Shown piece by piece: positions 1,886-50,090 of a stretch of DNA of 64,000 nt (position 1 is its first letter; each line of letters opens with the position of its first letter). This stretch comes from Clostridiales bacterium (lineage in GTDB: Bacteria > Bacillota > Clostridia > Lachnospirales > Lachnospiraceae): positions 1 to 64,000 of the forward strand of contig JAAYNM010000090.1 in assembly GCA_012520815.1 (NCBI GenBank), given 5' to 3'. A model generated the notes under the pieces. It saw nothing but the letters and a program-made list of their open reading frames with translations. It was not told the origin of the DNA and ran no database searches. The position numbers and the translations under genes are program-made.

Positions 1886-2689
1886 TTACTGAACTAAAAG
1901 AAGCTTTTGTAGGGCCTTTTTACTGATAATCTTTGTATAATGTTCTTTGTAAAAGGCTTCATTTGCAGCGGCACCGCGTTCGAGAGTGCCGTATTCAAGC
2001 AAGATATTGCATACTTTATTAAAATCCTCGATAGAATGATTACTCTTAGTAACCACCAAATAGTACTTTTGACTAGAGGATGCCTTGTACAAGGTGTTGT
2101 TGCCATTGTACATATCCTGTAGGATAGTCGATACTGATACTATGGTGTATATATCTTTAAAAGAGAAAATCTTTACAATATTTTTGTTTTGGTTCTCAAC
2201 TGATTCCTTGGCTGGTTCCTTCTTGCTCTCCTTGATAGTGATGCTTTTGCTCTTTGAGAGAGCCTGAGGTAAGGGAATAAAGTTATCGCCATTCTTATCC
2301 ACAGCCTTTAATTCATTCTTAATATGGCTGAACATATCTAGAAGTTCAGGTGTGGAATGGGTATAACTACCGTCACCATCAGTTTCTTCAATATCATCAG
2401 GGGATGGGGCGAACCTAGAGAATCGAGTATCTAACTCTTCTGGGTCTTCTACTTTAGTGATAAGAAGAACGATACAATCGCCAGATACTGGAATAGCCTC
2501 TATCATAAGAGGAATATCTTCTGCCTCAAAACCAAATTCGCTAGAAGCCTGTTGCATCATATCTCTGAAAAGATTTTTCGCTTTTTCAGTTCCATACGCA
2601 AGCTCACTTAACTTAATCTGTCTTGAAACCAAATCGGATTTATTTAAAGTACACTTTATCTGATTATCATTTATTTTCTCGATTTTCAT
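1886..2689 (-). CDS. mecA: Adaptor protein MecA
   Basis: MKIEKINDNQIKCTLNKSDL...LFRDMMQQASSEFGFEAEDIPLMIEAIPVSGDCIVLLITKVEDPEELDTRF; start trimmed to MKIEK. Confidence 0.88.
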   Translation of the reverse strand: MKIEKINDNQIKCTLNKSDLVSRQIKLSELAYGTEKAKNLFRDMMQQASSEFGFEAEDIPLMIEAIPVSGDCIVLLITKVEDPEELDTRFSRFAPSPDDIEETDGDGSYTHSTPELLDMFSHIKNELKAVDKNGDNFIPLPQALSKSKSITIKESKKEPAKESVENQNKNIVKIFSFKDIYTIVSVSTILQDMYNGNNTLYKASSSQKYYLVVTKSNHSIEDFNKVCNILLEYGTLERGAAANEAFYKEHYTKIISKKALQKLLLVQ

Positions 2690-2897
2690 ATAACGCACCT
2701 CATTTCTTATGCAGAAGAACTGCATTTTTTATAAAACATGATTAAAGAATCTTGTTTATATTGTTATATAGTATAACCTATCTTTAATTCATATGTAAAG
2801 CGGTTTATATCTAAAAATTGTAAAGTAAATATTAACAAAATGGTATTAGGGTTTATACAAAAATAAAAACAATATATATAAAATGCACAAATAAAAC

Positions 2898-2926: not shown

Positions 2927-2975
2927 CATCAAAGAGGTTGTTTTAGTAAGCGAAGAAAGGAGAAAACAAACATAG

Positions 2976-4397
2976 ATTAGCGAAGAAACAATCATTTTCA
3001 ACAAGTACACTATTATTAAAGAACTCCATTCTGGAGTTAGTGGAAGTGTGTACCTAGCCAGGCATTTATCACTAAATGTAAGTAGAGTTATTAAACGAGT
3101 ATCTAAAGACTCGGTGTATGGCGATAGTTTTTATCGTGAGACAGGGATTTTAAAGGACATAAGACATGAGAGCATTCCCACTATATTTGATATAGAAGAG
3201 GATAATGACAACTATTACATCATTGAGGAGTTTATTGATGGGATCAATCTGTATGACCTAATTACGGAACAGGGAATATTAGCAGAGTCCGTTGCGGTTA
3301 TATATGGCATTCAATTATCAAAACTTATTACTTTCTTACATTCAAGAGAACCAGAACCTATACTATTTCTGGATTTACAACCCAAAAACATCATCATAAA
3401 AGATGAAAAACTTTATCTAATCGATTTTGGAAATTCTTCAGTGGGAGATGAAGCTAATTACAGGAAGATTTTAATGGGAACACCAGGATTTGCTGCACCG
3501 GAGCAGTATTCGGGCACTGCAGGGATGCAAACAGATATTTATGGTATAGGAGCACTGCTGTATTTCATGGTTACAGGAGAGATAATGTTGGACCATGAGA
3601 TAGGGTGTAGTTTTAATAAAAATATTTCACACATGTTCAAAGATATTATTCTAAGATGTTTAGAGAATCAAGAAAGACTTAGATTTTCATCTGCATCAAA
3701 AATCAATCAACAGCTACAGTTATTACATAAGAAAAAATGCGAAGCTTACAAAGAAAACAAACCTCTAGTTATATCAGTTGCAGGGATGGATACAAGGATC
3801 GGTACAACGCACATTGCATTATTAATGAGCAGATTTCTAAAAAATATGGGAATTGATACGCTATACGAGGAAAATAACGACTCTAATCATGTTAGAAAAA
3901 TTGCGGGGCTTCATTCTGATTGTATATATTCTCAAGGAACGTTCATATACAAGAAGCTTAGACTTATTCCGAAATATAGCAATAATGTTTATCTAGAATT
4001 CGATAGCGAGATAGTCGTTAGAGATGAAGGTGAATATAGAGTCGATAAAAAATACGGAGACTTATTATTTATTGTCGCGGGGACGCGAGAATGGGATTTA
4101 TATTTTGCAAAAGAATTTCTCCAAGATGATCCACAGTATGCGGGAATCATTTTCAATCTATCAGATGATGAACAATATAGAAATGCTATTAATTATTTAG
4201 ATGTCGCAGGTTACAAGATGCCTTTTTCCCCCAATATTCATCAACTCGATAAAATCACAGCAGATTTTTACAATGACCTTTTGAAGGAGGTGTTACAAAG
4301 TAGACGTGAACCTGAAAAGAAAAAGAAATATTGGACGCCTTTGGGGATTATCCAAAAGTGGAGAGACAAAAATCATAGGTATAACTGGCGCAGCTAG
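2976..4397 (+). CDS. Hanks-type Ser/Thr protein kinase fused to a ParA/CpaE-like P-loop-type domain; possible ATT start
   Basis: In-frame from 2976: ISEETIIFNKYTIIKELHSGVSGSVYLARH (Gly loop), VIKRV, FLDLQPKNI, LIDFGNS, FAAPEQY; C-terminal VISVAGMDTRIGTTHIALLMSRFLKNMGIDTL. The tracked ORF starts at GTG 3048, inside the Gly loop. Confidence 0.8.
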   Translation: MSEETIIFNKYTIIKELHSGVSGSVYLARHLSLNVSRVIKRVSKDSVYGDSFYRETGILKDIRHESIPTIFDIEEDNDNYYIIEEFIDGINLYDLITEQGILAESVAVIYGIQLSKLITFLHSREPEPILFLDLQPKNIIIKDEKLYLIDFGNSSVGDEANYRKILMGTPGFAAPEQYSGTAGMQTDIYGIGALLYFMVTGEIMLDHEIGCSFNKNISHMFKDIILRCLENQERLRFSSASKINQQLQLLHKKKCEAYKENKPLVISVAGMDTRIGTTHIALLMSRFLKNMGIDTLYEENNDSNHVRKIAGLHSDCIYSQGTFIYKKLRLIPKYSNNVYLEFDSEIVVRDEGEYRVDKKYGDLLFIVAGTREWDLYFAKEFLQDDPQYAGIIFNLSDDEQYRNAINYLDVAGYKMPFSPNIHQLDKITADFYNDLLKEVLQSRREPEKKKKYWTPLGIIQKWRDKNHRYNWRS

Positions 4398-4926
4398 GGC
4401 TGTAGGTACCACCTCATTTGCCTTTGCTTTGGCAGAGTATCTAAGGGCTATAGGCCAATATAAGGTTGCGTTAGTAGAGATGAACAGTCATCAGGATTTT
4501 AGAAAAATTTGCGCCACACTAAAAAAAGCAAAGATGGAGGAAGATCATTCTTTTAGCAATGGTCGGATTACTTTTTATGCTGAAATGAGCAAATTTGGAA
4601 TATCCAAGGTATTTAATGAAGATTATGATTACATAATCATTGATTATGGACATAAGTTCCATAATATTGAGAGTTTTCTTAGATGTAGCTATAAGATTGT
4701 ATGCGCATCAACATATCCATGGAAGTTGCCGGAATATCAACAATTGCTGACACATATTGAAGAGATAAAAGGTAGCGATAAATGGTTGCATGTTATTAGC
4801 GGAGATGAAAAGATATACAAAAATATCCAGCGTAAATATAACATTGCTACAGTGAGGATGCCCTATATTCAAGATATAGAAAAAATAGATGGTATCAGCG
4901 TCGAATTTTTTCAAAAGATTATATAG
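4306..4926 (+). CDS. ParA/CpaE-like protein with non-canonical Walker A motif
   Basis: KIIGITGAARAVGTTSFAFALAEYLRAIGQYKVALVEMNS...YDYIIIDYGHKF; overlaps the kinase ORF by 92 nt in the +1 frame. Confidence 0.65.
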   Translation: MNLKRKRNIGRLWGLSKSGETKIIGITGAARAVGTTSFAFALAEYLRAIGQYKVALVEMNSHQDFRKICATLKKAKMEEDHSFSNGRITFYAEMSKFGISKVFNEDYDYIIIDYGHKFHNIESFLRCSYKIVCASTYPWKLPEYQQLLTHIEEIKGSDKWLHVISGDEKIYKNIQRKYNIATVRMPYIQDIEKIDGISVEFFQKII

Positions 4927-5168: not shown

Positions 5169-5370
5169 AGTGGTAGGAATAACCACTAAGAATATATAAT
5201 TAGATCGTCTCGGTCAGACGTAAAAGGACAGGGATCATTTGGGTGCTCACAAACGCTAGATGATATGGGCGGACAGTGGACAGATAAATTTTATTCGTAA
5301 AATTAAAAAAAGAGAACACCTCCATGTGTGCATTTAGTGAAAAAACGAAATGCGCACATAGAAGGTGTTT
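5169..5370 (+). ncRNA. Candidate structured RNA of unknown family
   Basis: Successive stems AGTGGT/ACCACT (5169-5187), CGTCT/AGACG (5206-5220), ATCAT/ATGAT with TTTG/CAAA (5234-5264), then a terminator hairpin; preceded by an A-rich tract. Confidence 0.3.
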
Positions 5371-5374
5371 TTTT
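5315..5374. terminator. Intrinsic terminator
   Basis: AACACCTcCATGTGTGCATTT...AAATGCGCACATaGaAGGTGTT followed by a T run. Confidence 0.75.
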
Positions 5375-5488
5375 GGTTAGTAGTATAATTTGAGTAGAAT
5401 ACAATGCCAAGCGTAAAGGAAAAAATAATGACGATTTATGCATACTATGATATAATTCATGAATACAGATGTATTCGGAGGTAATGAA

Positions 5489-7246
5489 ATGTACAAAAAG
5501 ATCACCAAAAAGGTGTCGATAGCACTACTTATGGCAATGACGACCATTATGCTTGTAGCTTGTGGCGGTAAAAAAGAAAATGACGAATATATGGAATTGA
5601 GAGAATATTTCGGGATTGTGTCACTTGAAGAACATAGTTCGTGCGCAGTGATTGTGGATAATAGCATAGTCGATCAGGGATTGATCATAGATAACCAGAT
5701 TTATATTCCGTATGATACCGTTAGGAAGCAACTAAATAATCATTTTTATGTGGATTACAATGAAAAATTACTTATATATACAGACCCCCATATGAACATT
5801 GATTCTGAATTTGAAACAGAGGTTTATAAAGTGGCAGGCGTTGAAAAGAATTTTGGTAAGCTCATAGTAACGATGGTAGGTGAAAGGGCATACATATCCC
5901 TGGATTTTGTAAGTGAAATGGGAATTAGTAGCGTATATGAAACATTTGCAGAACCTGATAGAATAGTATTTAAAAATGCAATTAGTAGTACTGTTGCCGA
6001 GGCTACTGAGGATAGTTATCTAAAGTATGAGCCAGATTTGATGTCGAAGAGGCTTTGCGATGTTAAAGAAGATGAGAAATTATACGTAATAGAAGAAACT
6101 GCAGGATTTGTAAAAGTGGCAACGACTTCAGGAATAACAGGATATATTAAAAGTGAAATAATATCAGAATATACAGAAGAAATATTTGAGGGTAATACAG
6201 AATTTGTACCATTGGAATATAACCACACGGTTAGGGATCATAAAATTTGTATTGGATGGCATCAGATGGAATTTGCAGCAGGTAATGACAGCATTGGAGA
6301 AGTTACCACAGGTACCACAGGTATGAATGTCATTTCGCCTACCTGGTATCAAATTAATGATGCATATGGCGGATTTTACAATGTATCCTCAGAGAAATAC
6401 GTTACTATTGCTCATAATATGGGATTAGAGGTATGGGCTTTGGTTAGTGATTTTATGGTTAACGAAGAAACGGGTGAATATTACATAAATGAAGTAATTG
6501 GCTCCACATCAACTAGAAGAGCTCTTGTTGAAAATCTTATGCAAGAGGTGGAAATAAATAATTTAGATGGAATTAATATTGACTTTGAAAGAATTTCATA
6601 TGCCAATGGAGAAGCTTACGTACAGTTTATAAGAGAGCTATCCATAAAGTGCAGGGAGAAAGGTGTAGTGTTATCCGTAGATATGTATGTACCTACAGCT
6701 AGCAGTATGTATTATGATAGAACCTCTGTAGGAGAGGCGGCTGATTATGTGATAGTTATGGGATATGATGAGCACTGGGCAGGAGGTGGTAGTGCAGGAT
6801 CAACTGCATCCATTGGATTTGTTACTGATGGTATAACAAACACTATGATGGAAGTTGAACCGTCTAGAATTATTAATGCGATTCCTTTTTATACTAGAAT
6901 ATGGCAAGAAATCCCAGAGGATTTGGCAGAGGAAGGGCAAGAAATAATAGAAGATAATATTATTGGAAATTATGCTTTAGATAGTTGGGCAGTTGGTATG
7001 GGAACAGCAAAAAATACCCTTGCTTCTCATGGCGTTACGCCTGTATGGCTGGAAGAGCAAGGACAATATTACGGAGAATACAAGGAAGATGGAATCACCC
7101 ATAGAATATGGTTAGATGATAGTGAATCTATAGCGTTAAAACTTAGCGTTATGGATGAATATAATTTGGGTGGCGTTGCTTGTTGGAAATTGGGACTTGA
7201 AACTACATCTATATGGGAGACTATTAACGACTATTTACAGAGATAA
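5489..7246 (+). CDS. Lipoprotein with glycoside hydrolase family 18 domain (YaaH/spore-germination-type)
   Basis: Lipobox LMAMTTIMLVACGG; catalytic signature LDGINIDFERI; VMGYDEHWAGG; SH3-like segment; start moved to MYKKITKK after GGAGGT. Confidence 0.88.
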   Translation: MYKKITKKVSIALLMAMTTIMLVACGGKKENDEYMELREYFGIVSLEEHSSCAVIVDNSIVDQGLIIDNQIYIPYDTVRKQLNNHFYVDYNEKLLIYTDPHMNIDSEFETEVYKVAGVEKNFGKLIVTMVGERAYISLDFVSEMGISSVYETFAEPDRIVFKNAISSTVAEATEDSYLKYEPDLMSKRLCDVKEDEKLYVIEETAGFVKVATTSGITGYIKSEIISEYTEEIFEGNTEFVPLEYNHTVRDHKICIGWHQMEFAAGNDSIGEVTTGTTGMNVISPTWYQINDAYGGFYNVSSEKYVTIAHNMGLEVWALVSDFMVNEETGEYYINEVIGSTSTRRALVENLMQEVEINNLDGINIDFERISYANGEAYVQFIRELSIKCREKGVVLSVDMYVPTASSMYYDRTSVGEAADYVIVMGYDEHWAGGGSAGSTASIGFVTDGITNTMMEVEPSRIINAIPFYTRIWQEIPEDLAEEGQEIIEDNIIGNYALDSWAVGMGTAKNTLASHGVTPVWLEEQGQYYGEYKEDGITHRIWLDDSESIALKLSVMDEYNLGGVACWKLGLETTSIWETINDYLQR

Positions 7247-36786: not shown

Positions 36787-36891
36787 ACAATTAAGTGACT
36801 ATATGTTTTTGTAGTACATATTTTTTTTGTTTGGTTTATTTGTCCGGGTGGTTCCGGAATGTTGATTTTGCATAAAAAGGGGACTCAACAC

Positions 36892-38625
36892 ATGGCAGGA
36901 TTTAGAACGAGAATTAGACTTGGTGATGTACTTGTACAAGAAGGATACATTACTGAGGAACAAGTAGGATTAGCACTTGAAGAACAGAAAAAGCAGGGAA
37001 CTCTATTAGGTGAGACTATGGTAGCATTAGGATTTGTTACCGAGGACCAGTTGATAGATGTTCTTTGCGAACAGCTAAAGATTGATTATATAGATTTAAG
37101 AAAAGTAGAATCTATTCCAGAAGATATAATCAGCCTTATACCAGAAGAACTTATTAGAAAATACTCATTATTACCAGTTAGGATGTCATCTACACAGATG
37201 AATACCTTAGTAGTAGCGATGACTGATCCCATGAATATTTATGCGATAGATGATATTTCTATTGTTACAGGATATCAGATAGAACCAGTACTTTCTACCA
37301 CTTCACAGATTAATAGCAAGATTGACCTTATATTTGGTAAACAGCAGGCTCAGAATATTGCTGAAAAGTATAAGAAGGAGCAGGAAGCATATTTTGATTC
37401 TGGGAAGAAGAGCAAAGATGACGACAGTGAGGATGAGGCTAGACGTGAAGATGTTGAGAACTCACCTATCGTTTTGTTAGTTAAAGGTGTTATTGAACAG
37501 GCTGCTAGACAAAGAGCCAGTGATATACATATTGAACCCTTTGAGTATAATGTAAGAGTTAGATTCCGTGTAGACGGTTCGTTAAGAGAGATTATTTCAT
37601 ATGATAAGGCATTATACAATGCTATTATTGCACGTGTTAAGATAATTTCAGGGATGGATATTTCTGAGAAGAGAAAACCACAGGATGGCCGTATTACACA
37701 AGTAGTCGATCGTAAAGAATATGATATCCGTGTATCTTGTTTACCTACAGCTTTTGGCGAAAAGGTTGTTATGCGTCTTGCTTCTAAAGAAGGCTTCAAC
37801 AAGGATAAGAAAGATTTGGGTCTTAGACCTGAAGATTTAGTACAATTTGATAACATATTAAAGAACCCTCATGGTATTATTTTAGTTACAGGACCTACAG
37901 GTAGTGGTAAATCAACCACCCTTTATACAGCCTTAAGTGAATTGAATCGGGAAGATGTAAATATTGTTACAGTAGAGGATCCTGTAGAAGCAAATATTGA
38001 CGGAATAAATCAGGTACATGTTAATGTAAAAGCAAATCTTACATTTGCCAGTGCCTTAAGATCAATTCTTCGACAAGATCCAGATATTATTATGATTGGT
38101 GAGATTCGAGATGGTGAAACAGCAGGCATTGCCATCAAAGCCGCTATTACAGGACATTTGGTTGTTAGTACATTACATACCAACAGTACAGCGAGTACTA
38201 TTGGACGTATGGTGGATATGGGTGTTGAACCGTATTTGCTGGGTGATTCCCTTGTGGGTATTATTGCACAGCGTCTTGTTAGAAGACTTTGTCCAGAATG
38301 TAAAAAAGCTATACAAGCATCCCTTGATGATAAAAAGAAGATGGGTGTTGATATACATCAAGAATACACCATATATGAGCCAGTAGGTTGTCCAGCTTGT
38401 GACAATTCAGGATATAAAGGACGTATTGGTATATATGAAATTCTTACAGTTACAGGTAAAATTAAGAATCTTATCGCAAATAATGCAACTGCGGAAGAAA
38501 TAAAGGCGGGAGCCGAAGCAGAGGGAATGAGCTCACTTAGGAGTTCAGCTGCTAAGTATGTTATAGAAGGTGTTACTTCTGTGGCAGAGATGATGAAGGC
38601 TACATACACCGCGGACGAGGAGTAG
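36892..38625 (+). CDS. pilB: Type IV pilus assembly ATPase PilB/GspE
   Basis: MshEN-type N-terminus; LVTGPTGSGKSTTLYTAL, EDPVEANIDGINQV, Zn motif CPEC...CPAC. Confidence 0.95.
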   Translation: MAGFRTRIRLGDVLVQEGYITEEQVGLALEEQKKQGTLLGETMVALGFVTEDQLIDVLCEQLKIDYIDLRKVESIPEDIISLIPEELIRKYSLLPVRMSSTQMNTLVVAMTDPMNIYAIDDISIVTGYQIEPVLSTTSQINSKIDLIFGKQQAQNIAEKYKKEQEAYFDSGKKSKDDDSEDEARREDVENSPIVLLVKGVIEQAARQRASDIHIEPFEYNVRVRFRVDGSLREIISYDKALYNAIIARVKIISGMDISEKRKPQDGRITQVVDRKEYDIRVSCLPTAFGEKVVMRLASKEGFNKDKKDLGLRPEDLVQFDNILKNPHGIILVTGPTGSGKSTTLYTALSELNREDVNIVTVEDPVEANIDGINQVHVNVKANLTFASALRSILRQDPDIIMIGEIRDGETAGIAIKAAITGHLVVSTLHTNSTASTIGRMVDMGVEPYLLGDSLVGIIAQRLVRRLCPECKKAIQASLDDKKKMGVDIHQEYTIYEPVGCPACDNSGYKGRIGIYEILTVTGKIKNLIANNATAEEIKAGAEAEGMSSLRSSAAKYVIEGVTSVAEMMKATYTADEE

Positions 38626-38633
38626 GAGAAGAC

Positions 38634-39689
38634 ATGATGACCGTTGAAGAGATTTTAACAGTAGCAAAGGAGCTAAAAGCTTCCGATGTTCATATTGCAG
38701 TAGGAATACCACCTAAGGTAAGGGTTCATGGTGAACTTATGAATATGAACTACCCAATGCTTACTAAGGATGATTCAGATAGCATAATTAAAAGTGTTAT
38801 GAATACTAGGCAGATGGAGATATTAGAAGAAAAAGGTGAGGTTGACTTTTCTTTATCGATTCCGAAAGTTGGGCGATTCAGAGTTAATGTATTCAGGCAA
38901 AGAGGAACTCTTTCAGCAGCACTTCGTTTGGTAAATACTATTATTCCAAGACCTGAAGACTTAGGAGTTCCACCATCAGTTGTAAATTTGTTTAAAAAGA
39001 AGAGAGGCCTTGTACTTGTAACAGGACCTACAGGTAGTGGTAAATCTACTACACTGGCTTCTATTATTAACGTTATTAATGAAAATTTACCAGCTCATGT
39101 TATTACCCTTGAGGACCCTATAGAGTACTTACATTCTCACAAGATGGCAACAGTCAATCAAAGAGAGATTGGAATGGATTCACTTTCATATAAGAATGCG
39201 CTTAGGGCAGCACTTCGTGAAGATCCAGATGTAGTTCTTGTAGGAGAGATGAGAGATTTAGAGACCATATCCATTGCTATAACAGCAGCAGAAACTGGAC
39301 ATTTGGTTTTCTCCACATTACATACAATAGGTGCAGCAGCAACTATCGACCGTATTATTGACGTATTTCCACCACACCAACAGCAGCAAATCCGTATTCA
39401 GCTTGCTATGGTACTTGAAGCAGTTGTATCACAGCAATTAATTGCAACAGCAGACGGAAAGTCACGAGTGGCAGCTTTTGAAGTTCTTCACTCCACCCCA
39501 GCGATTAAGAATCTTATCCGTGAGAATAAAACATTCCAGATTGCTTCTACTATGCAGACGAACAAAAAGATGGGTATGCAGACTATGGATGACGCATTGT
39601 TTTACTTATATGCACAGGGAATCATTTCAAGAGATAACGCACTTAATTACGCTCAGGATCCACAATCATTGGAAAGAAAACTTTTCTAG
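38634..39689 (+). CDS. pilT: Type IV pilus retraction ATPase PilT
   Basis: ASDVHIAVGIPPKVRVHGEL, VTGPTGSGKSTTLASIINVIN, AIRLG-like region replaced by AALREDPDVVLVGEMRDLETI. Confidence 0.95.
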   Translation: MMTVEEILTVAKELKASDVHIAVGIPPKVRVHGELMNMNYPMLTKDDSDSIIKSVMNTRQMEILEEKGEVDFSLSIPKVGRFRVNVFRQRGTLSAALRLVNTIIPRPEDLGVPPSVVNLFKKKRGLVLVTGPTGSGKSTTLASIINVINENLPAHVITLEDPIEYLHSHKMATVNQREIGMDSLSYKNALRAALREDPDVVLVGEMRDLETISIAITAAETGHLVFSTLHTIGAAATIDRIIDVFPPHQQQQIRIQLAMVLEAVVSQQLIATADGKSRVAAFEVLHSTPAIKNLIRENKTFQIASTMQTNKKMGMQTMDDALFYLYAQGIISRDNALNYAQDPQSLERKLF

Positions 39690-39703
39690 GAAAGAGGTAT
39701 TAA

Positions 39704-40918
39704 ATGGCACAATTTTCATATGAAGCCGTCGGTATGGATGGCAAGATAAAAAAAGGGAACATTGAAGCTGATAGTATTGAAAAAGCAAAGAGTCTTCTAA
39801 GAGGTGATGGTCTAACAGTTTTAAAATTAGGAGAAGCCAATATATTCAATAAGGATTTGAATTTCAGCTTTGGAAAGAAAAAGAAATTGGGGGCTAGAGA
39901 CTTAAGCGTTTTTTGTAGACAGTTCCTTAGTATTTTAAAGGCAGGAGTTAGTGTTATTATGGCACTAGACATGTTGGGAGACCAGACAGAAAACAAGACC
40001 CTTAAGGCAGCGATAAAGTCCACAAAGGACAATGTAGAAAAAGGTGATACCCTTGCAGCAGCAATGAGAAAGCAAGAAGGAGTTTTTCCATCTATTCTTT
40101 TGAATATGATAGAGGCTGGTGAAGCATCAGGTTCCTTAGAAGTATCACTTGATAGAATGAGTACTCATTTTGAAAAGGATGCTAGAATTAAGGGTATGGT
40201 AAAGAAAGCTTTTATGTATCCTATAGTACTTGTATTTGTTATGATAGCAGTAATTATAGTTATGTTGACATTTGTTATCCCACAGTTTGAAAGTATGTTT
40301 GCAGATCTTGGAGATGAGCTGCCAGCCTTTACAAAAGCAGCCGTGGCCCTTAGCGCTTCATTGCAAAATAGTTGGTACATATATGTAATTGCAATTATTA
40401 TTATTGTAGTAGCTTACAAGTTCTACTCAGCCACACCTAATGGTTCAAGAGTAATGTCAACACTTAAACTTAAGATACCAGTATTTGGGGCTCTAGCTAC
40501 AAAGACAGCCTGTGCAAGATTTTCAAGAACACTTGCTACATTACTTGCAGCGGGAATGCCACTTATTGACGCTATTAATATTTGCTCAAAGATTATGGAC
40601 AACGTTTTATTTAGAGATGCTCTTACAGAAGCGGCAAAGCAGGTTGAACGAGGTCTGCCACTATCAGTTCCGCTTAGACAATCAGGTCTATTCCCGAATA
40701 TGGTACTTCATATGACAGGTATAGGTGAAGAAACTGGTAATATGGAGGAGATGCTTACAAATGTAGCCAACTACTATGACGAAGAAGTAGAGATGACTAC
40801 ACAGCAAGCGACAGCCCTTATGGATCCAATAATTATTGTAGTTATGGCATTAGTTGTATCTGCACTTATTGCTGTTATCTACGCGCCAATGATGCAGATG
40901 TACTCAAGCGTTGGTTAA
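39704..40918 (+). CDS. pilC: Type IV pilus inner-membrane platform protein PilC/GspF
   Basis: Two GspF repeats: LSVFCRQFLSILKAGVSVIMALDMLG and CARFSRTLATLLAAGMPLIDAINICS. Confidence 0.95.
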   Translation: MAQFSYEAVGMDGKIKKGNIEADSIEKAKSLLRGDGLTVLKLGEANIFNKDLNFSFGKKKKLGARDLSVFCRQFLSILKAGVSVIMALDMLGDQTENKTLKAAIKSTKDNVEKGDTLAAAMRKQEGVFPSILLNMIEAGEASGSLEVSLDRMSTHFEKDARIKGMVKKAFMYPIVLVFVMIAVIIVMLTFVIPQFESMFADLGDELPAFTKAAVALSASLQNSWYIYVIAIIIIVVAYKFYSATPNGSRVMSTLKLKIPVFGALATKTACARFSRTLATLLAAGMPLIDAINICSKIMDNVLFRDALTEAAKQVERGLPLSVPLRQSGLFPNMVLHMTGIGEETGNMEEMLTNVANYYDEEVEMTTQQATALMDPIIIVVMALVVSALIAVIYAPMMQMYSSVG

Positions 40919-41004
40919 AAAATTTATCCCCAGTGGATATACCCTCGGGACCCGAGCCAGAGGTTGATATCATAAAATAATAAATCTAAAGGAGATTAAA
41001 GGAA

Positions 41005-41520
41005 ATGAAAAAGACAAACAACAAAGGTTTCTCATTAGTAGAGCTTATCGTAGTTATTGCTATTATGGCAGTACTCATCGGTGTATTAGCACCAGCACTT
41101 ATTGGTAACATTGAAAAATCAAGAGAATCAAAGGATATACAAGCACTTGATGCAGTTTACGCAGCAGTTAAAACAGCTTACGGCGACGAAGCAGGAAATA
41201 AATCAGCAGCTGAAATTGAGGGTCTTACCGAAGGAAAAGGGGTGAAACTTGACACTATTAAGGTAACAGAGGATAATGCATTTGCAAAACAGGTTAAAGA
41301 GTATCTTGAGGGCGAAGACATTGAGTTCTCATCAGGTGCTAATGAAAAAGCTGATGTATATGTTATGATTATTGATGGTAATATTACAGTTTATGCTGCA
41401 GAAAAAGCTGGAACACCTACACAAGCAAAAAAAACAACAAATGAAAAAGGCGAAGGTATTAAGTTCCTCGTTGGTAATAAAGCGAACGTTGGCGAAGCAG
41501 AAGAACCAGCCGAACCATAA
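41005..41520 (+). CDS. pilA: Major type IV pilin (prepilin)
   Basis: MKKTNNKGFSLVELIVVIAIMAVLIGVLAPAL, class III signal peptide. Confidence 0.92.
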   Translation: MKKTNNKGFSLVELIVVIAIMAVLIGVLAPALIGNIEKSRESKDIQALDAVYAAVKTAYGDEAGNKSAAEIEGLTEGKGVKLDTIKVTEDNAFAKQVKEYLEGEDIEFSSGANEKADVYVMIIDGNITVYAAEKAGTPTQAKKTTNEKGEGIKFLVGNKANVGEAEEPAEP

Positions 41521-41545
41521 AAAATATGAAAAAGGAATATAGAAT

Positions 41546-42313
41546 ATGCCTAGTGAGATAATTCTGTTTACATTTATAGTAGTATTTATATACGGTTTAT
41601 GTATAGGTAGCTTTTTAAATGTATGCATATATAGAATACCATTAAAAGAGAATATTGCTGTAAACAGGTCTCACTGCATGTCCTGTGGTGGACAGCTGAA
41701 GTGGTACGACCTTGTACCACTTTTCAGCTATCTGTTTCTTCAAGGAAGGTGCAGATATTGCAAAGAGAAAATATCAATACAATATCCATTAATAGAAAGT
41801 ATTAATGGTCTCGGGTATGTATTAATATTTATTGTAAATGGAATTAATCTCACAAGCATATTATATTCCTTAGCATTTTCAGCATTAATAGTACTAAGTG
41901 TTATTGATTGGAAGACGTATGAAATACCACTACCTATTAATATATTTATATTAGCACTAGGAGTTATTAGGGCAGTACTGGATTACGAAAACTTAATTGA
42001 CTACATTATAGGGTTTGTTTGTGTCAGTGGTTTTCTATTGTTGCTATTTTTTGCAACAAAAGGAAGGGGAATAGGCGGGGGAGATATTAAACTTATGGCA
42101 GCCGCAGGGTTGCTACTTGGTTGGAAAAATATAATATTAGCACTTGTAATTGGATGTGTAGTGGGTTCTATTATACACATCGCGAGAATGAAGATATCAA
42201 AAACAGATCATGTATTAGCATTTGGACCATATCTATCAGTTGGCATTTTTATAGCTATGCTGTGGGGTGATCCAATAATACGCTGGTATTTATCTATGTT
42301 TAACTTAAATTAG
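41546..42313 (+). CDS. pilD: Prepilin peptidase
   Basis: IGSFLNVCIYRIP, CxxC pairs CMSCGG/CRYCKE, GRGIGGGDIKLMAAAGLLLGW. Confidence 0.95.
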   Translation: MPSEIILFTFIVVFIYGLCIGSFLNVCIYRIPLKENIAVNRSHCMSCGGQLKWYDLVPLFSYLFLQGRCRYCKEKISIQYPLIESINGLGYVLIFIVNGINLTSILYSLAFSALIVLSVIDWKTYEIPLPINIFILALGVIRAVLDYENLIDYIIGFVCVSGFLLLLFFATKGRGIGGGDIKLMAAAGLLLGWKNIILALVIGCVVGSIIHIARMKISKTDHVLAFGPYLSVGIFIAMLWGDPIIRWYLSMFNLN

Positions 42314-42383
42314 AAAATAACGTGGGAAACCACGAGTAAATAAATAGAAGGAAAAATAACCGCAAGGTATAGGAGGAAAATAG

Positions 42384-44102
42384 ATGGCTAGAATATTATC
42401 CATTAGAATCGGTAAGAAGTACGTTAAAATATGTGAATTACAGTACTCTTCAGGAAACAGTGTGTACGTTAACAGAATCTTAAAGGCAAAGCTCCCAGAA
42501 GGTGTTGTTGAAGATGGTTTCATTATGGACTTTTATGCTGCAGAGATATTCTTAAGATCAATTCTTACAGAAAACAGCATGACAGCTACAGATGTTATCT
42601 TCTCTATTTTATCATCAAAGATTGCAAGTAAAGAAGTATCAACACCTATAATGAATAAGAAAAGATTGGTGGAGATGATTGATGCCAACGCCAGTGAGTA
42701 CTTCCCAGTATACCTTGAAGATTATATTCTGGCGCATACTGTTCTTGATAAAGGTAATCCTAAAAAGGGGTTAAATACTATGAGGGTTCTTGTGCTTGCA
42801 GCACCAAAGGACCTGATTGATGATTATTATAAGTTAGCAGAAAGACTTAAATTAAATGTTAAGTCTATTGATTATGCTGGAAACTCAGCATATCAAATGA
42901 TAAGAAGACAGATTGATAGCTCTGTATCATTAGTAATTCAGATTCAGGAAGAGAATACAACAGTTAATATTTTAAATGATAACATTCTTAAGCTACAAAG
43001 AGTAGTTCCATATGGTAAAAACTTACCACTAGAGGCGCTTTGTAATGCCAATGGAATAGACGAGGATGAGGCTACTACACTTCTTGAAACGGAGAGATAT
43101 ATCCATGAGACATTTGATGGGGATCCGGTTACAGAATCTATTAAACATTTGTTTAACAATATCTTAAGAGTAGTGGATTACTACAACTCACGTTATGTAG
43201 ATGAACCTATTGAAAAAGCATATCTTGTAGGCGAATCAGTTAGTTTGCTTGGTATAGAGAATTTGTTTGCCAATGAATTTAATTTTCCAGTTATGGAGAT
43301 TAATAAATTCCACGGTGTTAAACTAGAAAATGAAAATGAGTTATTACATAGAATTGTAACAAAGTATGTAGGATGTTTAGGCGCAGGTATTGCATCTGTA
43401 GACTTTATGCCTAAGGAAACCCTTGAAAAAATTAAAAATATAAATAGTTTCCGTATGCTGAAAATCGGTGTTATAGGTGCATTGGCTGCAGGAGTACTTT
43501 TTTGTGCCATACCACTTACACAGATAATATTTGCAACTGCTGAACAATCAAACATCCAAAAGAAGATTGATAGAATAAAAGATATAGAAAAAGTTGTGGA
43601 TGATTATTATGATGCTCACGATATATATTATGATGCAGCAGCATTTAAAGATATGTCAGATAGTAATAATGACTCACTCATTAACTTTATAACAGAATTG
43701 GAACTTACTCAGCCTAGTGATATTGCAATTAGCAATATTACTGTAAAAAATGGACAGGTTAGCATTACTGGTACTACCAGTGTAAAACCTACTATTGCTA
43801 AGTACATTACCCAACTTAAGGGTATGAGCAATGTGGCAGATGTTTTCGTTAGTACACTATCAGAGACAAAGGACGAAAATGGTGTTATTACTACTAAGTT
43901 TACACTTGCATGTTTATTCAAAAAGTTACCAGACTATGTAGATTATGCCGAAACTTTAATTGGTCAAAATGTAATGGATTTCGAAAGTATAATTCGCGAC
44001 CTGATAGACAAACAAAATTCATCAATAGAAGAGGATGAATCAGAGAGTAAAGCGAACAGACCAGATGAAGATGAGACACCAGATTCATCAGAAGAAGAGT
44101 AG
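42384..44102 (+). CDS. pilM: PilM-PilN fusion protein
   Basis: N-terminal actin-like PilM; FMPKETLEKIKNINSFRMLKIGVIGALAAGVLFCAIPL...LINFITELELTQPSDIAISNITVKNGQVSITGTT is PilN-like. Confidence 0.82.
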   Translation: MARILSIRIGKKYVKICELQYSSGNSVYVNRILKAKLPEGVVEDGFIMDFYAAEIFLRSILTENSMTATDVIFSILSSKIASKEVSTPIMNKKRLVEMIDANASEYFPVYLEDYILAHTVLDKGNPKKGLNTMRVLVLAAPKDLIDDYYKLAERLKLNVKSIDYAGNSAYQMIRRQIDSSVSLVIQIQEENTTVNILNDNILKLQRVVPYGKNLPLEALCNANGIDEDEATTLLETERYIHETFDGDPVTESIKHLFNNILRVVDYYNSRYVDEPIEKAYLVGESVSLLGIENLFANEFNFPVMEINKFHGVKLENENELLHRIVTKYVGCLGAGIASVDFMPKETLEKIKNINSFRMLKIGVIGALAAGVLFCAIPLTQIIFATAEQSNIQKKIDRIKDIEKVVDDYYDAHDIYYDAAAFKDMSDSNNDSLINFITELELTQPSDIAISNITVKNGQVSITGTTSVKPTIAKYITQLKGMSNVADVFVSTLSETKDENGVITTKFTLACLFKKLPDYVDYAETLIGQNVMDFESIIRDLIDKQNSSIEEDESESKANRPDEDETPDSSEEE

Positions 44103-44112
44103 GAGGTATAGT

Positions 44113-45258
44113 ATGAAATTAGATTTTAAATTAGCCCCAAAAGATAAAAGACTTTTATTAACACTTTTGATAGTAGTCATCTTAATAGCGGCTGTTATTG
44201 TATATAACATGTTAAGCACAAGCGTATCTGATATAGAAGCAGAAAATGTGAAACTTAAGGCGATTGAAACAGATCTTTCAGAAAAAAGTGCTAATAGGAA
44301 GAACTATGTGGCAAAAACAAATGACTACAAGCTTTTATATGAAGAGATAATTAATTCATATGCAGCAGGACTTGATCAAGAGACGATTATTATGGATTTA
44401 GCATCTATAGAAAGTGATACTGAAGTATGGCTTAAACAAGCTGGTTTAACCCAGGTGGAACTTTTATACTCATTCGGTGATGTGAAATCTACAAATCCGA
44501 CTAAAGAAGGGCAACCAGTATACGTCTCTGACTTACAAGGATACAGTTCAGTTACAACTCTTTCTTATGAATGTACATATGAACAATTTAAGGCTGTAAT
44601 TAAGGCAATTAATCAAAGTGATAAAAAATATAAGATTGATAATATATCAGCGAATTATTCCAAGTCAGAAGACTTAGTTACGGGTGCAATTACACTTGAT
44701 TATTATGCAGTTACAGGTAATAATAGAGTTTTCCCTGGAACAACTATTGATGGAGTACCAGTGGGAACAGATAATATATTCGATTCTAGTACATATAGTG
44801 CAGGTGGTGTGGATGCAAAATACCTTGATAAGATTAAGACAAATTATGATTTATATCTTAACTTAAATGATGCAGCATCGGATGTGGATGCAATAGTGGT
44901 TGGACAAAGAAGCGATGTACTTGGAGAAACAAAAGTATCATCAAATCTCAATGCGACAGAAGTCGTAGAGATTACAGTATCAGGCTCAGGTGGTAACTAT
45001 ACAGTTAGTTACAGAATAGGTGATGAAGCATACCCAATTGATAACTTTATTGAGGGTGCAGCATTCTCCTTTGGTGATAGCCTGGATTTACTTGTTGTAA
45101 GCCGTCCACGTAATGGTGATGCTGATAAGGCAACAGCAAGACTTTCAGTGATTAATAATACTGATGTTACACTTAATATTGGTATCTTAAATGATGATAT
45201 AACAGAACCTAGATGTATACTTAGTAAGAGTTCTGGAGATATCGAAGTATTTCAGTAG
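44113..45258 (+). CDS. PilO-like alignment-complex protein
   Basis: MKLDFKLAPKDKRLLLTLLIVVILIAAVIVYNML then coiled coil and periplasmic-type domain; GGAGG upstream; directly after pilMN. Confidence 0.7.
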   Translation: MKLDFKLAPKDKRLLLTLLIVVILIAAVIVYNMLSTSVSDIEAENVKLKAIETDLSEKSANRKNYVAKTNDYKLLYEEIINSYAAGLDQETIIMDLASIESDTEVWLKQAGLTQVELLYSFGDVKSTNPTKEGQPVYVSDLQGYSSVTTLSYECTYEQFKAVIKAINQSDKKYKIDNISANYSKSEDLVTGAITLDYYAVTGNNRVFPGTTIDGVPVGTDNIFDSSTYSAGGVDAKYLDKIKTNYDLYLNLNDAASDVDAIVVGQRSDVLGETKVSSNLNATEVVEITVSGSGGNYTVSYRIGDEAYPIDNFIEGAAFSFGDSLDLLVVSRPRNGDADKATARLSVINNTDVTLNIGILNDDITEPRCILSKSSGDIEVFQ

Positions 45259-45273
45259 GCAGGAGATGATTAA

Positions 45274-46398
45274 ATGAAGTCTTTAAAAAAGAATAACGAA
45301 GGTTTTTCCCTTATTGAATTAATCGTAACAATAACTGTTATAGCTATAGTGGCGATACCATTCATTAGGAGTTTTATGACCGCTATGAATGTAAATTCAG
45401 AGGCTAGAAGACTTCAGAATGCAACGACTGTCGCACAGGATATGACGGAATATTTTAAGGCAAAAAGTATTGAGGAATTAATGGCTGATTATGAATCATA
45501 TGTCACTAGTACAGAATCATCACCAGTAGACGATACATATGACAGAATATTTACAACATATAAATTTACTTCCATACCAAAAACAGGGGCAGATACAGAG
45601 GATTTTTATGTAGATATAAAGCTAGATCCTATAGAATATACAGATGCCAGCCCTGTAGCAGGTACGGATGCCGCAAAAAATGCGGTTAACAGTATGACTA
45701 GCCCCGAATTTTCAAGTCTTTTTGGCTCTGATGCAGCAATGATATTGAAACAATATACAGGTCCAGATAATGATTTGGAATCATATTTTAGAAGTAAAAA
45801 TGAACTTGCCGCTGGTGACTATGCAAATCTTGTTCCAGGAAAAGTGGTAAAGTCATCAAAGATGGATATAGAGTGCGATTATGATCATTCAACAGGTATA
45901 TATACATATTATATTAAGCTTACAATGACATATACCTTTGATGGCAGTAAAAGTGTTGATGTAGTTAAAACAATTACTAAGACTTATAATACGCCAGAAG
46001 GCCATGCTATATATATGTTACTTCCAGTCTATGATACTGTAAATGAAAACGCATCTGATAGTCTGAATATAAATTACACCTTTCTTAGTGAAGATGACTA
46101 CAAGACAGACGTAAGATTATATCTTGCAGAACAGCAAACAGCAGCGAAAATTCAGAGTGACAAGATAAAGATAAATGGTACCAACTTATATAGCTACAAT
46201 AACAGTGACAATAACTTCAAGGTATATACAAACATTCAAAGAAGTTTGAGTGATATTGCTTCAACAGAGGAAGTACAAGGACTTACATATTCTGAAAAGT
46301 CGGACAATGCAATTCTTTATCAGATAACTGTAGACGTACATTATAAAACTGCTGATGGCAAAGTAATAGCAACCTTTACCAGCACTAAGGAGGATTAG
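45274..46398 (+). CDS. Type IV pilus minor pilin (PilV-like)
   Basis: KKNNEGFSLIELIVTITVIAIVAIPFIRSF prepilin motif. Confidence 0.85.
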   Translation: MKSLKKNNEGFSLIELIVTITVIAIVAIPFIRSFMTAMNVNSEARRLQNATTVAQDMTEYFKAKSIEELMADYESYVTSTESSPVDDTYDRIFTTYKFTSIPKTGADTEDFYVDIKLDPIEYTDASPVAGTDAAKNAVNSMTSPEFSSLFGSDAAMILKQYTGPDNDLESYFRSKNELAAGDYANLVPGKVVKSSKMDIECDYDHSTGIYTYYIKLTMTYTFDGSKSVDVVKTITKTYNTPEGHAIYMLLPVYDTVNENASDSLNINYTFLSEDDYKTDVRLYLAEQQTAAKIQSDKIKINGTNLYSYNNSDNNFKVYTNIQRSLSDIASTEEVQGLTYSEKSDNAILYQITVDVHYKTADGKVIATFTSTKED

Positions 46399-46400
46399 GT

Positions 46401-48845
46401 ATGCTTATGGGAAGAAGAGTATCACCAAAGAAAAATAAAATAGGCTTAAATGATAGTGGTTCCACAATGGTAATGGCAGTTATTGCTATTGCCTTTGTGG
46501 CTATTCTTGCTACTGTCATTTTATCGGCATCACTTGCCAATATTAATATGAAAAGAATGGATTCAAATTCTAAGAATACATTCTATACGGCAGAGTCGGT
46601 TTTAGATGAGGTAAAGGCTGGTATTGGATATGACAGCATTAATGTACTTGGAGAATCTTATACAAAGGTTCTTACTACCTTGGTTAGGCAGGGACCATCA
46701 TATAAGTATATCATTAATAATGAGCAGGCCAATCAGGAATTAAAGGAATACTTTGTAGATGGTGTACTTAGCAAGGTAACAAATAATGAATTGGCCTTTG
46801 ACGACAAAACTTTAGTAACTACAAATAATTCAGTAAAATTAGGCCAGGTAAAAGATTATCTGAACGGATTTATAAAGGGATATGAAGGCGAAGATAAAAC
46901 AGCAGAGGTAAAAAGTATAGGAAAAATAACAGCTGTAAAAGACAAAGATTTGGCAAAATATACAGTTATCCTTAAGGATGTGGTTATTGCATATAAGCAA
47001 GAAAAAGCAGAGAGTAATTACTTTTCAAATATAACAGTAGATTTTAATATAGATTTTCCAGATTTAACTGTTAACTTTACTGGTGGTAATACATTGCCAG
47101 GATTTAAGGAATTCAGTTTAATTACAGATGGTACATTATTAATTAACGGAAATCAGCTTAATGTTAATGCTTCTCATATTTATGCTGGTGAGAAAATAGC
47201 TATAACAGCCGATACAGATGGAAATAGTGGAATTATGAATGTAACAGGAAACGTAGTGACTGTAGATGGCGGAACTGCGAATTCTAATATAATATCTAGA
47301 GGTGATATTGTTGTAAGAGGTTCAGGAAATGCAACTAGTGCACTTTCGGTAGCAGGTGGAGATATTTGGTGTAACAATTTAACAATAGATAGTTACATTA
47401 GTACAATTGGTGGTAAGAGAGATATAACAAAGGGCGGAACTATTAATATAGATTCTTTCTCTAATACATATGTAAATGATGATTTAAATTTATATGGAAA
47501 ATATAGTTCGGCAACGATAGGTGGTAATTTCTACGGCTACAGTTATGATGGAAGTGCTGTTAATTCTCATACAGCATCTAGTTCTGTTATTATTAGCGGA
47601 GAATATTCATTACTTAATTTTAATCTTAATAGATTAATAGTAGGTGGTCGTTCTTATGTTGTTATTCCAGGTTCTGCTACAGGTGACTATATGACAGGTG
47701 AATCCCTTTCTGTTACAGAGGATCAGGATTTATACCTTGTTCAATCAAAGTATATTAGTACAAATCCATCAAATCCTATGGCATATGCTACATGGGAGTC
47801 TATAAAGAACGATGCAGGAGCAAATGTTATAAATACAACGGGATTTTTTGCAGCTGATTTACTGAATCCAACAACACCTTATGTAGAAAAAAGATCTGGT
47901 AATACATTATATATTTACTACAATTTTAAAGATAAGGCTTCGGCTACAGAATACATAAAGAGAATTATTAACGGAGCAGATGCAGAGTTAAAGGGTATAC
48001 TTAACTCATATGCTTCAAAAGTATTCACAGGCAGTTCTTCTCCAGCTGGAGTAAGCATTACAGCTGGTCAACTATATACAGCTGGAACACTGATGCAGAC
48101 TAGTAGCTTATCTGCTTTTGCAGGTGTAGGTTCTAATCAATCAGGACAGATGAATGATATTTCTTATGCAAGCGGAACTAACTCCATAGGGAATGATGTC
48201 TTTGTATTGAATGCACTTAACTGTAAAAATAGATATGATATTATTACGCACTTATTGGTGGATATACCAGCAACTAAAAATGGAGCAGAATATATTGTAG
48301 ATAATAGCGATGCTGCACTAAAAGAATTTTATGATAATTACGAGGCATCGGGAAGTGAAATGTCCAATGATGCATCTTCAAATATCATTAATTATAACTT
48401 GTTAGATTCTGGTATACAGTACAATAAAGACGAACAACTTATAATGTATGACTCTGGTTATATAAAACTAGCAATAAATAGAGCATCATATGTTGTTCCA
48501 AATAATGTAAAAGGTGGCATTATAGTATGTACGGGTTCTGTAATTTTGAATCATGATTTTAAAGGCTTGATAATATGTAAAGAGGGAATTCAAATTACAA
48601 ACAATGCTACAGTTACAACAGATGTAGCACTTATAGAAAACCTCATTATTAACGAATATGCATTTGCTGATGGTACAGTAATAGATCCAGAGGATGCGAC
48701 AACAAAGAGGTTCAAAGAATTCTTCTACGCATATGCTTCATCAGCTCCAGATGATGAGTCATCAGAAGCTCTAAGAATTGAAAATATAAGTTACACTGAC
48801 ATAGTAGGATGCACCAATTGGAGAAAATATGATGATGGCGAATAA
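46401..48845 (+). CDS. Very large PilX-like minor pilin, possible beta-solenoid domain
   Basis: NDSGSTMVMAVIAIAFVAILATVILSASLANINMKRMDSNSKNTFYTAESVLDEVKAG; long G/N/T/S-rich strand-repeat region. Confidence 0.75.
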   Translation: MLMGRRVSPKKNKIGLNDSGSTMVMAVIAIAFVAILATVILSASLANINMKRMDSNSKNTFYTAESVLDEVKAGIGYDSINVLGESYTKVLTTLVRQGPSYKYIINNEQANQELKEYFVDGVLSKVTNNELAFDDKTLVTTNNSVKLGQVKDYLNGFIKGYEGEDKTAEVKSIGKITAVKDKDLAKYTVILKDVVIAYKQEKAESNYFSNITVDFNIDFPDLTVNFTGGNTLPGFKEFSLITDGTLLINGNQLNVNASHIYAGEKIAITADTDGNSGIMNVTGNVVTVDGGTANSNIISRGDIVVRGSGNATSALSVAGGDIWCNNLTIDSYISTIGGKRDITKGGTINIDSFSNTYVNDDLNLYGKYSSATIGGNFYGYSYDGSAVNSHTASSSVIISGEYSLLNFNLNRLIVGGRSYVVIPGSATGDYMTGESLSVTEDQDLYLVQSKYISTNPSNPMAYATWESIKNDAGANVINTTGFFAADLLNPTTPYVEKRSGNTLYIYYNFKDKASATEYIKRIINGADAELKGILNSYASKVFTGSSSPAGVSITAGQLYTAGTLMQTSSLSAFAGVGSNQSGQMNDISYASGTNSIGNDVFVLNALNCKNRYDIITHLLVDIPATKNGAEYIVDNSDAALKEFYDNYEASGSEMSNDASSNIINYNLLDSGIQYNKDEQLIMYDSGYIKLAINRASYVVPNNVKGGIIVCTGSVILNHDFKGLIICKEGIQITNNATVTTDVALIENLIINEYAFADGTVIDPEDATTKRFKEFFYAYASSAPDDESSEALRIENISYTDIVGCTNWRKYDDGE

Positions 48846-49419
48846 AAAACTCAAACTAAATAACAAAGGTGCAACCTTGGTTGAAGTGATTGTGGTTGTA
48901 GCTATTATGATTGTTGTTATTGGTGGTATGACTATAGGATTTTCACTTATAACTAATACCTACACAAGACAAACTAAAGATACATTAGAAGATTACATAG
49001 GCTCAGCTAGAACCAAAGCAAAGACAGTGACAGCCGATGAGTGGAATGTTGAAATTGCGAAGGAGAGCAATGGAGATTACAAATTTACACTTAATAAGGT
49101 TGTTAAGGAAATGAAAGCGGATGGAAGTATAACTTCAACTCCTGAAGTTGTCGACGAAAAACTAGTTAGTGGTGATGTGATTATTAGCTTTGTAAATGAT
49201 ACAGGTTACAAGGTTGATATCGATGATACTTCATCGAATCTTAAGATAGTGTTTGAGGCATCTAAAGGTAGCGTATCAAATATTATGGTAAACGATGTAA
49301 GCATTGCTACTGATGGAGATATGGGTAGTATGGGAACATTTACCGTAACCAAAGGCTCGTTCAGCAAAAAACTTGAACTTTACTTCATCACAGGTAAATG
49401 TGAAGAAGTATTCGACTAG
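48829..49419 (+). CDS. Minor pilin (GspH-like)
   Basis: NNKGATLVEVIVVVAIMIVVIGGMTIGFSLI; overlaps the previous CDS by 17 nt. Confidence 0.85.
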   Translation: MMMANKKLKLNNKGATLVEVIVVVAIMIVVIGGMTIGFSLITNTYTRQTKDTLEDYIGSARTKAKTVTADEWNVEIAKESNGDYKFTLNKVVKEMKADGSITSTPEVVDEKLVSGDVIISFVNDTGYKVDIDDTSSNLKIVFEASKGSVSNIMVNDVSIATDGDMGSMGTFTVTKGSFSKKLELYFITGKCEEVFD

Positions 49420-49430
49420 GCGGTGAGAAA

Positions 49431-50090
49431 ATGAAAAGTATTAAAACTAATCAAAAACTGAATAATGAAGGTTTTACGCTTATTGAATTATTAGTATCTA
49501 TGGCGATTAGTGGAATAGTGATAGTTTTGATTGCAGCCTTAATGACTAATGGATCTCTGCTCTTTAAAACGGAGAGTGAGAAAATAGATGTGCAAAATGA
49601 GCTGCAGATGGTAGATACGTTCATTACCGAAACTATCATGGAAGCAAAAACGTTAGATATAGTAGAAGATAGTGAAGGAACATTAACACTTTATACAGGA
49701 ATTAGAGGAAGCGGCAATGAGCTTCTAGCGGTTCCATCAGAAGATGGATTAAAAACTACAGAAAGAATCATCACATATGATCCAGAAAACTTTTCAATGT
49801 ATATTACAGATAAATATATTGCAGATATTCCAAAAGGGTATCAAATTTCAAATTATGTTAGAACCTTTAAGGTGAGCATCGATGATAGTTGTAAAACGTA
49901 TCGAGATGAGGTGCCTACTGGAGAGACAGAACCAGTAGCTGTACATAAGGGATATTCAAATCCAATCATACTAAATATAGATTTGGTAGTAGGAACCGAG
50001 GATAGACAAAAAGTTGAAACAATGCGAATAGTACTTAGAAATAAAATAGATATGGTAACTGTTAACGGCACTGAATACAATGTAGAATAG
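49431..50090 (+). CDS. Minor pilin (PilW-like)
   Basis: NNEGFTLIELLVSMAISGIVIVLIAALMTNG. Confidence 0.87.
   Translation: MKSIKTNQKLNNEGFTLIELLVSMAISGIVIVLIAALMTNGSLLFKTESEKIDVQNELQMVDTFITETIMEAKTLDIVEDSEGTLTLYTGIRGSGNELLAVPSEDGLKTTERIITYDPENFSMYITDKYIADIPKGYQISNYVRTFKVSIDDSCKTYRDEVPTGETEPVAVHKGYSNPIILNIDLVVGTEDRQKVETMRIVLRNKIDMVTVNGTEYNVE

Follow-up and report, generated by a model that had tools for sequence, protein, structure and literature searches.

A Hanks-type kinase fused to a TadZ-like domain and its free TadZ-like neighbour open a divergent Tad-like operon in relatives of a Lachnospiraceae bacterium

Results

A kinase-fusion gene and a free-domain gene lie between mecA and a GH18 gene

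The window, that is, the whole 64,000-nucleotide stretch of DNA that was analysed, contains two overlapping genes that encode a Hanks kinase ending in a ParA/MinD-fold domain and a free protein of the same kind as that domain. The features of the locus were as follows.

1886-2725, minus strand: mecA, the divergent neighbour, kept across Lachnospiraceae (Pfam MecA, E 5.4e-75; synteny)
2957-2962, plus strand: Shine-Dalgarno-like AAGGAG, 5' of the kinase frame (sequence)
2976-3740, plus strand: Hanks Ser/Thr kinase domain (Pfam Pkinase, E 4.4e-34; AlphaFold and Foldseek to PknB-type kinases)
3741-4397, plus strand: the fused ParA/TadZ-like domain, which ends in a basic C-terminal tail (profile-profile comparison with the free domain, 99.6% and 99.8%; AlphaFold)
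3783-3812, plus strand: degenerate P-loop GMDTRIGTTH of the fused domain, without the Walker A lysine (sequence, family alignments)
4306-4926, plus strand: free ParA/TadZ-like protein of 206 aa (sequence; AlphaFold; Foldseek)
4387-4416, plus strand: degenerate P-loop GAARAVGTTS of the free domain, without the Walker A lysine (sequence, family alignments)
5311-5373, plus strand: strong hairpin and T run between the pair and the GH18 gene, a probable terminator (RNA fold)
5459-7246, plus strand: GH18-family glycosidase, the conserved 3' neighbour (Pfam Glyco_hydro_18, E 1.6e-24; synteny)

The kinase gene extends from 2976 or 3048 to 4397 and overlaps the free-domain gene by 92 bases. Its frame can be read from ATT 2976 onwards, and GTG 3048, the first ATG, GTG or TTG codon, lies within the glycine-rich loop, which begins 5' of it; the kinase domain is therefore longer than the mechanical list of open reading frames gives. 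When ATT 2976 was taken as the first codon, the domain comprised residues 1-255. The region 5300-5385 folded at -33.6 kcal/mol (z -8.0); the Rfam matches in the gap between the pair and the GH18 gene were low-scoring and of miRNA type, lay over this terminator-like hairpin, and were rejected as spurious.

The kinase domain retains its catalytic residues

The VIK lysine, DLQPKN and DFG motifs that had been read from the sequence in the original prediction were all present in the kinase. In an alignment of 46 diverged orthologous fusions the catalytic lysine was conserved in all 43 that had a letter at that position, and the glutamate, the HRD aspartate, the asparagine, the DFG aspartate and the APE proline and glutamate were invariant. 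From the retention of these residues across the family the Hanks kinase appears to be catalytically competent.

An AlphaFold model of the whole fusion had a pLDDT of 88.7, and a Foldseek search with this model returned protein kinases, a result driven by the larger domain. Among bacterial PDB entries the kinase domain was closest to PknB of S. aureus and M. tuberculosis and to StkP. The window protein differed from PknB/Stk1-type kinases in that it had no PASTA repeats and, by hydropathy, no transmembrane stretch; the NCBIfam PASTA-kinase match spanned the kinase part alone and scored 102 bits against a cut-off of 450. The family also differed in its motifs, with the HRD arginine replaced by leucine in 46 of 46 aligned fusions and the DFG glycine by aspartate in 27 of 46; the window kinase keeps this glycine (position 152).

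Both ParA-fold domains belong to a family without the Walker A lysine

The two peptides on which the original prediction had been based were present, ISVAGMDTRIGTTHIALLMSRFL within the frame of the kinase and IGITGAARAVGTTSFAFALAEYL within the open reading frame that follows, and their alignment to the MinD/ParA P-loop with GTT in place of GKT was correct. The fold of the free domain, for which structure prediction had been proposed as a check, was assigned with confidence to the SIMIBI class: the AlphaFold model (pLDDT 89.5) matched HypB, ParA, FlhG, MinD and BcsQ in Foldseek, and the TadZ protein of Eubacterium rectale (3fkq) was rank 41 in the same list. The fused domain, modelled with pLDDT values mostly above 90 apart from the tail, was assigned to the same fold by profile-profile comparison with the free one (99.6%, E 9.7e-24). 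The two domains are homologous, and a tblastn comparison also detected this relationship (E 6.6e-5).

In the wider set of relatives the Walker A lysine was absent from 91 of 91 fused and about 77 of 77 free domains. Its loss is a family trait and is therefore neither chance nor a sequencing slip. The lysine position was occupied by T, V, A, C or I in the 46 aligned fusions (lysine in 0/46), the next residue was T in all of them, and a histidine followed this threonine (GxTH) in 43. At the signature-lysine position of ParA proteins the fused domain of the window has D and the free domain A; lysine or arginine was found there in 54 of 91 fused domains. The deviant Walker A motif of ParA/MinD ATPases, with both the signature and the Walker A lysines, was thus found in neither of the two window domains. 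The position of the switch-I aspartate of ParA/MinD was asparagine in 41 of 46 fused and 36 of 44 free domains in our own alignment, which favours, but does not prove, that the domains bind nucleotide and turn it over inefficiently. In 40 of the 46 aligned fusions the basic tail was found, with a median charge of +6.5.

The two genes often have no canonical start codon

In this family the kinase and free-domain genes often combined a strong Shine-Dalgarno site with the absence of ATG, GTG or TTG at normal spacing (loci L069 to L148). Frames without any such codon from the last in-frame stop up to the domain numbered 19 of 80 for the kinase and 12 of 77 for the free domain, and the same test on the neighbouring genes gave 0 of 70 mecA and 0 of 78 GH18 frames. 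For mecA, the 62 codons matched at the expected start position were all ATG, GTG or TTG. The mecA Shine-Dalgarno sites were weak, so a per-gene comparison of "Shine-Dalgarno plus canonical start" was uninformative.

Among the roughly 64 kinase loci without a canonical start, 35 had a near-cognate codon 7-8 nt past the Shine-Dalgarno site, where 9 were expected (9 in 64), a comparison to be read with the loci being related and the spacing having been picked after inspection. The codons counted, by hand, were ATA, ATC, ATT, GTA, GTC, TTA and TTC. About 17 kinase loci had a codon at this spacing that was not near-cognate (AAG, GAG, GCA and others) and are left unexplained by near-cognate initiation; about ten free-domain genes had ACG at the start spacing. 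In the window ATT opens the kinase frame, and the free-domain gene has GTA 4300 or GTG 4306 after AAGGAGG (region 4284-4306). Programmed frameshifting was rejected as the cause of the missing starts, there being no conserved shift site in the upstream sequences when these were inspected by eye.

The pair occupies a conserved slot in Lachnospiraceae

The search for further fusions and their neighbourhoods that had been suggested in the original prediction was carried out on the whole collection and gave 359 candidate relatives, of which 80 were kept. Most of these are listed as Lachnospiraceae or as gut organisms of Clostridiaceae type, and the named hosts included Hungatella, Enterocloster, Lacrimispora, Anaerocolumna and Clostridium symbiosum. 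Most of the 80 loci had the usual Lachnospiraceae arrangement, with mecA diverging from the kinase-fusion gene, which is followed by the free-domain gene and the GH18 gene. A CpaB-like gene lay between the free-domain and GH18 genes in 7 of the 80 loci, all from Lachnospiraceae, and no credible match to a CpaB-like remnant was found in the window gap. A conserved small open reading frame (ending ...DGSFYMGDYV..EIRFDRVY) followed the pair in 53 loci, among L074 to L136 and their neighbours; it was not found in the window gap. Elsewhere in the window, positions 36859-50087 carry type IV pilus genes (PilB- and PilT-type ATPases, T2SSF, prepilin peptidase, PilM/PilN and N_methyl pilins).

In other families the pair opens a Tad-like operon

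Outside Lachnospiraceae the kinase-fusion and free-domain genes were the first two genes of a single operon in five loci (L202, L203, L207, L055 and L060). Their order was kinase fusion, free domain, CpaB-like SAF protein, further ParA-like proteins, CpaF/TadA-type motor, TadB-like protein and pilin-like proteins. The CpaF-like ATPase is about 530-630 aa long, and the TadB-like platform is a single protein of about 510-680 aa; in these five loci the lengths are about 600 aa and about 570-680 aa, respectively. In L055 the operon is bordered by mecA on one side and by GH18 and amidase genes on the other, which is the slot of the reduced pair. This genetic home, a divergent Tad-like operon, had been missed in the original prediction. 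One further stretch (L201) contained the motor half alone and ended at the contig end; in that genome (G056) the kinase and free-domain genes lie on another contig that is also cut at its end (L049), so the whole operon is not displayed.

Profile-profile comparisons (hhalign, with small alignments) gave 98.8% for the CpaF-like proteins against conventional CpaF and 93.2% for the TadB-like proteins against TadB, whereas unrelated pairs scored no more than 9%; TadC was not matched by the second half of the TadB-like protein (1.2%). By the same small-alignment method the free domain gave 94.7% against conventional TadZ and the fused domain alone 33%. A free-domain HMM matched the TadZ proteins of sister genomes at 3e-5 and 1e-4, and 12 of 44 free domains were weakly matched by the NCBIfam CpaE-homologue model TIGR03815. 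Above the curated cut-offs the free domain had no match to any Pfam or NCBIfam model. The N-terminal receiver domain was absent: the free protein begins about 20 residues before the P-loop strand, and in the fused protein this place is taken by the kinase. The linked operon is apparently an undescribed relative of the Tad pilus machine.

Several other loci were noted. In L206 (13525-14577) a free-domain gene has a different N-terminal region of about 160 aa, which had no match to the TadZ receiver region, and no kinase gene was present in the stretch fetched. Large proteins of about 1000-1055 aa lie near the pilin-like genes of L220, L221 and L223 and are candidate surface or tip proteins; the single one tested contained DUF5704. 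A second clade (L065, L066 and L067) has longer kinases (548-578 aa) adjoining a PP2C-like gene, and in L065 a TadZ with the P-loop GGVGTST follows downstream.

The operon is split in the genus of the window

In the window genome (G000) a separate contig (C35) carries ParA-like, CpaF-like and TadB-like genes and ends just past the TadB-like gene; no pilin-like gene was found in this assembly. Sister genomes have the same type of locus with pilin-like genes. In this genus, then, the operon is split, with the pair and the motor locus on separate contigs of G000, and we infer that the two may still act together. The window genome also has a conventional Tad locus (contig C76, L149) with its own TadZ (P-loop KRSGRTS) and a cut CpaF, adjoining flagellin-type genes. 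The idea that the pair is simply the missing TadZ of this conventional locus was rejected because the locus has its own TadZ and CpaF, and a CpaF-like gene on contig C40 was set aside as a partner because it lies in an apparent mobile element with a relaxase.

Across 246 genomes of the order the free domain and the CpaF-like motor occurred together in 24, the motor alone in 6, the free domain alone in 17 and neither in 199 (Fisher p 4.6e-17, uncorrected for shared ancestry). Among 37 genomes of the family of the window the corresponding counts for the cassette and the motor, likewise uncorrected for ancestry, were 11 for both, 1 for the motor alone, 7 for the cassette alone and 18 for neither. 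Eight of the 12 motor-positive genomes of this family belong to one genus, which dominates the Lachnospiraceae signal. In Lachnospiraceae the pair and the motor were unlinked, and most cassette-bearing genomes outside the genus of the window had no motor, which weakens the case for a coupling of pair and motor in this family. One sister genome (G001, 90% complete) had the motor locus with no cassette found, two assemblies of few contigs (G128, 3 contigs; G227, 1 contig) had the pair with no CpaF-like motor match, and in G022 the CpaF-like gene was truncated. From the spread of the operon over several families we read the full operon as ancestral and the reduced pair as derived.

Discussion

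The nearest described family to the two domains is TadZ/CpaE. They share with it the SIMIBI fold and a deviant P-loop without the Walker A lysine (compare 3fkq) and, in relatives, linkage to CpaF-, TadB- and CpaB-like genes. In the relatives from other families these genes lie together with pilin-like genes, and in the genus of the window they are split into two loci. They differ in having no receiver domain, in the fusion of one copy to a Hanks kinase, in the presence of at least two divergent copies per machine, in the near-invariant histidine past the P-loop and in the weakness of their matches to family models. A match to CpaE/TadZ had been named beforehand as a result that would count against the original prediction. 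The domains did prove to be TadZ-like, but since they have no receiver domain and no TadZ model matched above its cut-off, they are not filed as plain TadZ. The machine as a whole resembles a conventional Tad/Flp pilus in the CpaF-type motor, the TadB-like platform and the CpaB-like SAF protein of the relatives, and differs in the size of the CpaF-like protein, the one-protein platform, the several ParA-like subunits, the kinase fusion and the pilin-like proteins, which had no family match.

Certain type VII secretion variants are also Gram-positive machines that carry kinases, and in one such variant, from clostridia, a TadZ-like receiver domain forms part of a protein (PMC11217815). The kinases of those variants, however, are separate proteins, membrane-bound where described, and no kinase-TadZ fusion is reported among them (PMC11217815); the operons studied here contained no recognisable WXG100 or FtsK-type gene. 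The kinase fusion, the association of several ParA-like subunits with this motor and the motor-less pair were undescribed in the family libraries and open-licence papers searched. The original suggestion of an undescribed system is supported in that an apparently competent kinase coupled to two ParA-fold domains lacking the Walker A lysine had no match in Pfam, NCBIfam or those papers.

Since the pair opens a Tad-like machine operon in related bacteria, its products are probably control and docking parts, and we consider it fairly likely that they form a module that controls and docks a divergent machine of the Tad-like (type IV filament) kind. For the Tad machine of Caulobacter, CpaE dimers have been modelled around CpaF, and a C-terminal amphipathic helix of CpaE is thought to take it to the membrane (PMC13170226). 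As TadZ/CpaE-type ParA-fold proteins, the fused and free domains would probably bind nucleotide and dimerise, with poor or no turnover, and would be located at the membrane, at the base of the motor. A role in membrane docking would fit the basic tail of the fusion. The fused domain would then keep a soluble Hanks kinase at the motor base, where phosphorylation of the motor, the platform, the CpaB-like protein or the free domain could decide whether a filament is built. In Lachnospiraceae without motor genes the module has presumably been reused. A more detailed scenario, which we put forward with considerable doubt, is that a docking ATPase became a nucleotide-clamped scaffold with its own kinase, that phosphorylation at the motor base switches filament assembly, and that the kinase-scaffold pair was kept alone for signalling in many gut Lachnospiraceae, with low translation from near-cognate starts.

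It is possible, although we do not think it likely, that, at least in Lachnospiraceae, the pair has ceased to serve a Tad-like machine and acts as an envelope signalling module of its own, with the neighbours in its slot, or the small protein encoded after it, as working partners. The retention of the slot in most of the 80 loci with a CpaB-like gene in so few, the motor-less genomes G128 and G227 and the conserved small open reading frame are all consistent with such a module, whereas a tie to the machine is favoured by the single operon that joins these genes to motor, platform and pilin-like genes in several other families, and by the motor locus that the window genome and its sister genomes retain. 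Stepwise gene loss in Lachnospiraceae, including the truncated CpaF-like gene, together with the window lacking a CpaB-like gene, might suggest functionless, decaying remnants of a lost pilus locus. Decay is very improbable, however, given kinase catalytic residues that are invariant across 46 diverged orthologues.

The original prediction had combined an active kinase with two pseudo-ATPases. The kinase half stands as far as its residues go, and the lysines are indeed gone, but a pseudo-ATPase character is not established. Both lysines are missing from the TadZ of E. rectale, which is nonetheless reported to have ATPase activity by means of a lysine that a neighbouring helix supplies (cited in PMC10482377); lysine loss by itself is therefore not new. 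Active MinD/ParA-like positioners that use another lysine, with a kinase that merely tunes them, would accord with this precedent and with the basic residue at the signature position of many fused domains. We regard this as unlikely, since the switch-I catalytic aspartate position is mostly asparagine in both domains and the signature position is non-basic in those of the window. An anti-phage defence kinase, suggested by matches of the kinase domain to PADLOC defence-kinase models, is the least credible proposal, as those matches span the kinase domain in its generic part, none of the models matches the free domain, and no gene of the slot was recognised as a defence gene.

Weak initiation of the kind proposed here has a precedent in S. 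aureus, where infC, ccpN and cvfC1 combine strong, extended Shine-Dalgarno sites with AUU or AUA starts and translation is lowered (PMC13009471). The likeness lies in the strong site with a weak start codon; the present case differs in that it involves two genes of one cassette and a wider set of codons, and is drawn from sequence alone. If confirmed, the pattern would add a further class of genes kept low by weak initiation. For the family as a whole, a gene pair that is widespread in gut bacteria but has no name is given a genetic home, and a Hanks kinase is linked directly to the TadZ-like base of a pilus-type machine. The range from complete operon to motor-less pair offers a natural series for studying the role of the control module without its motor.
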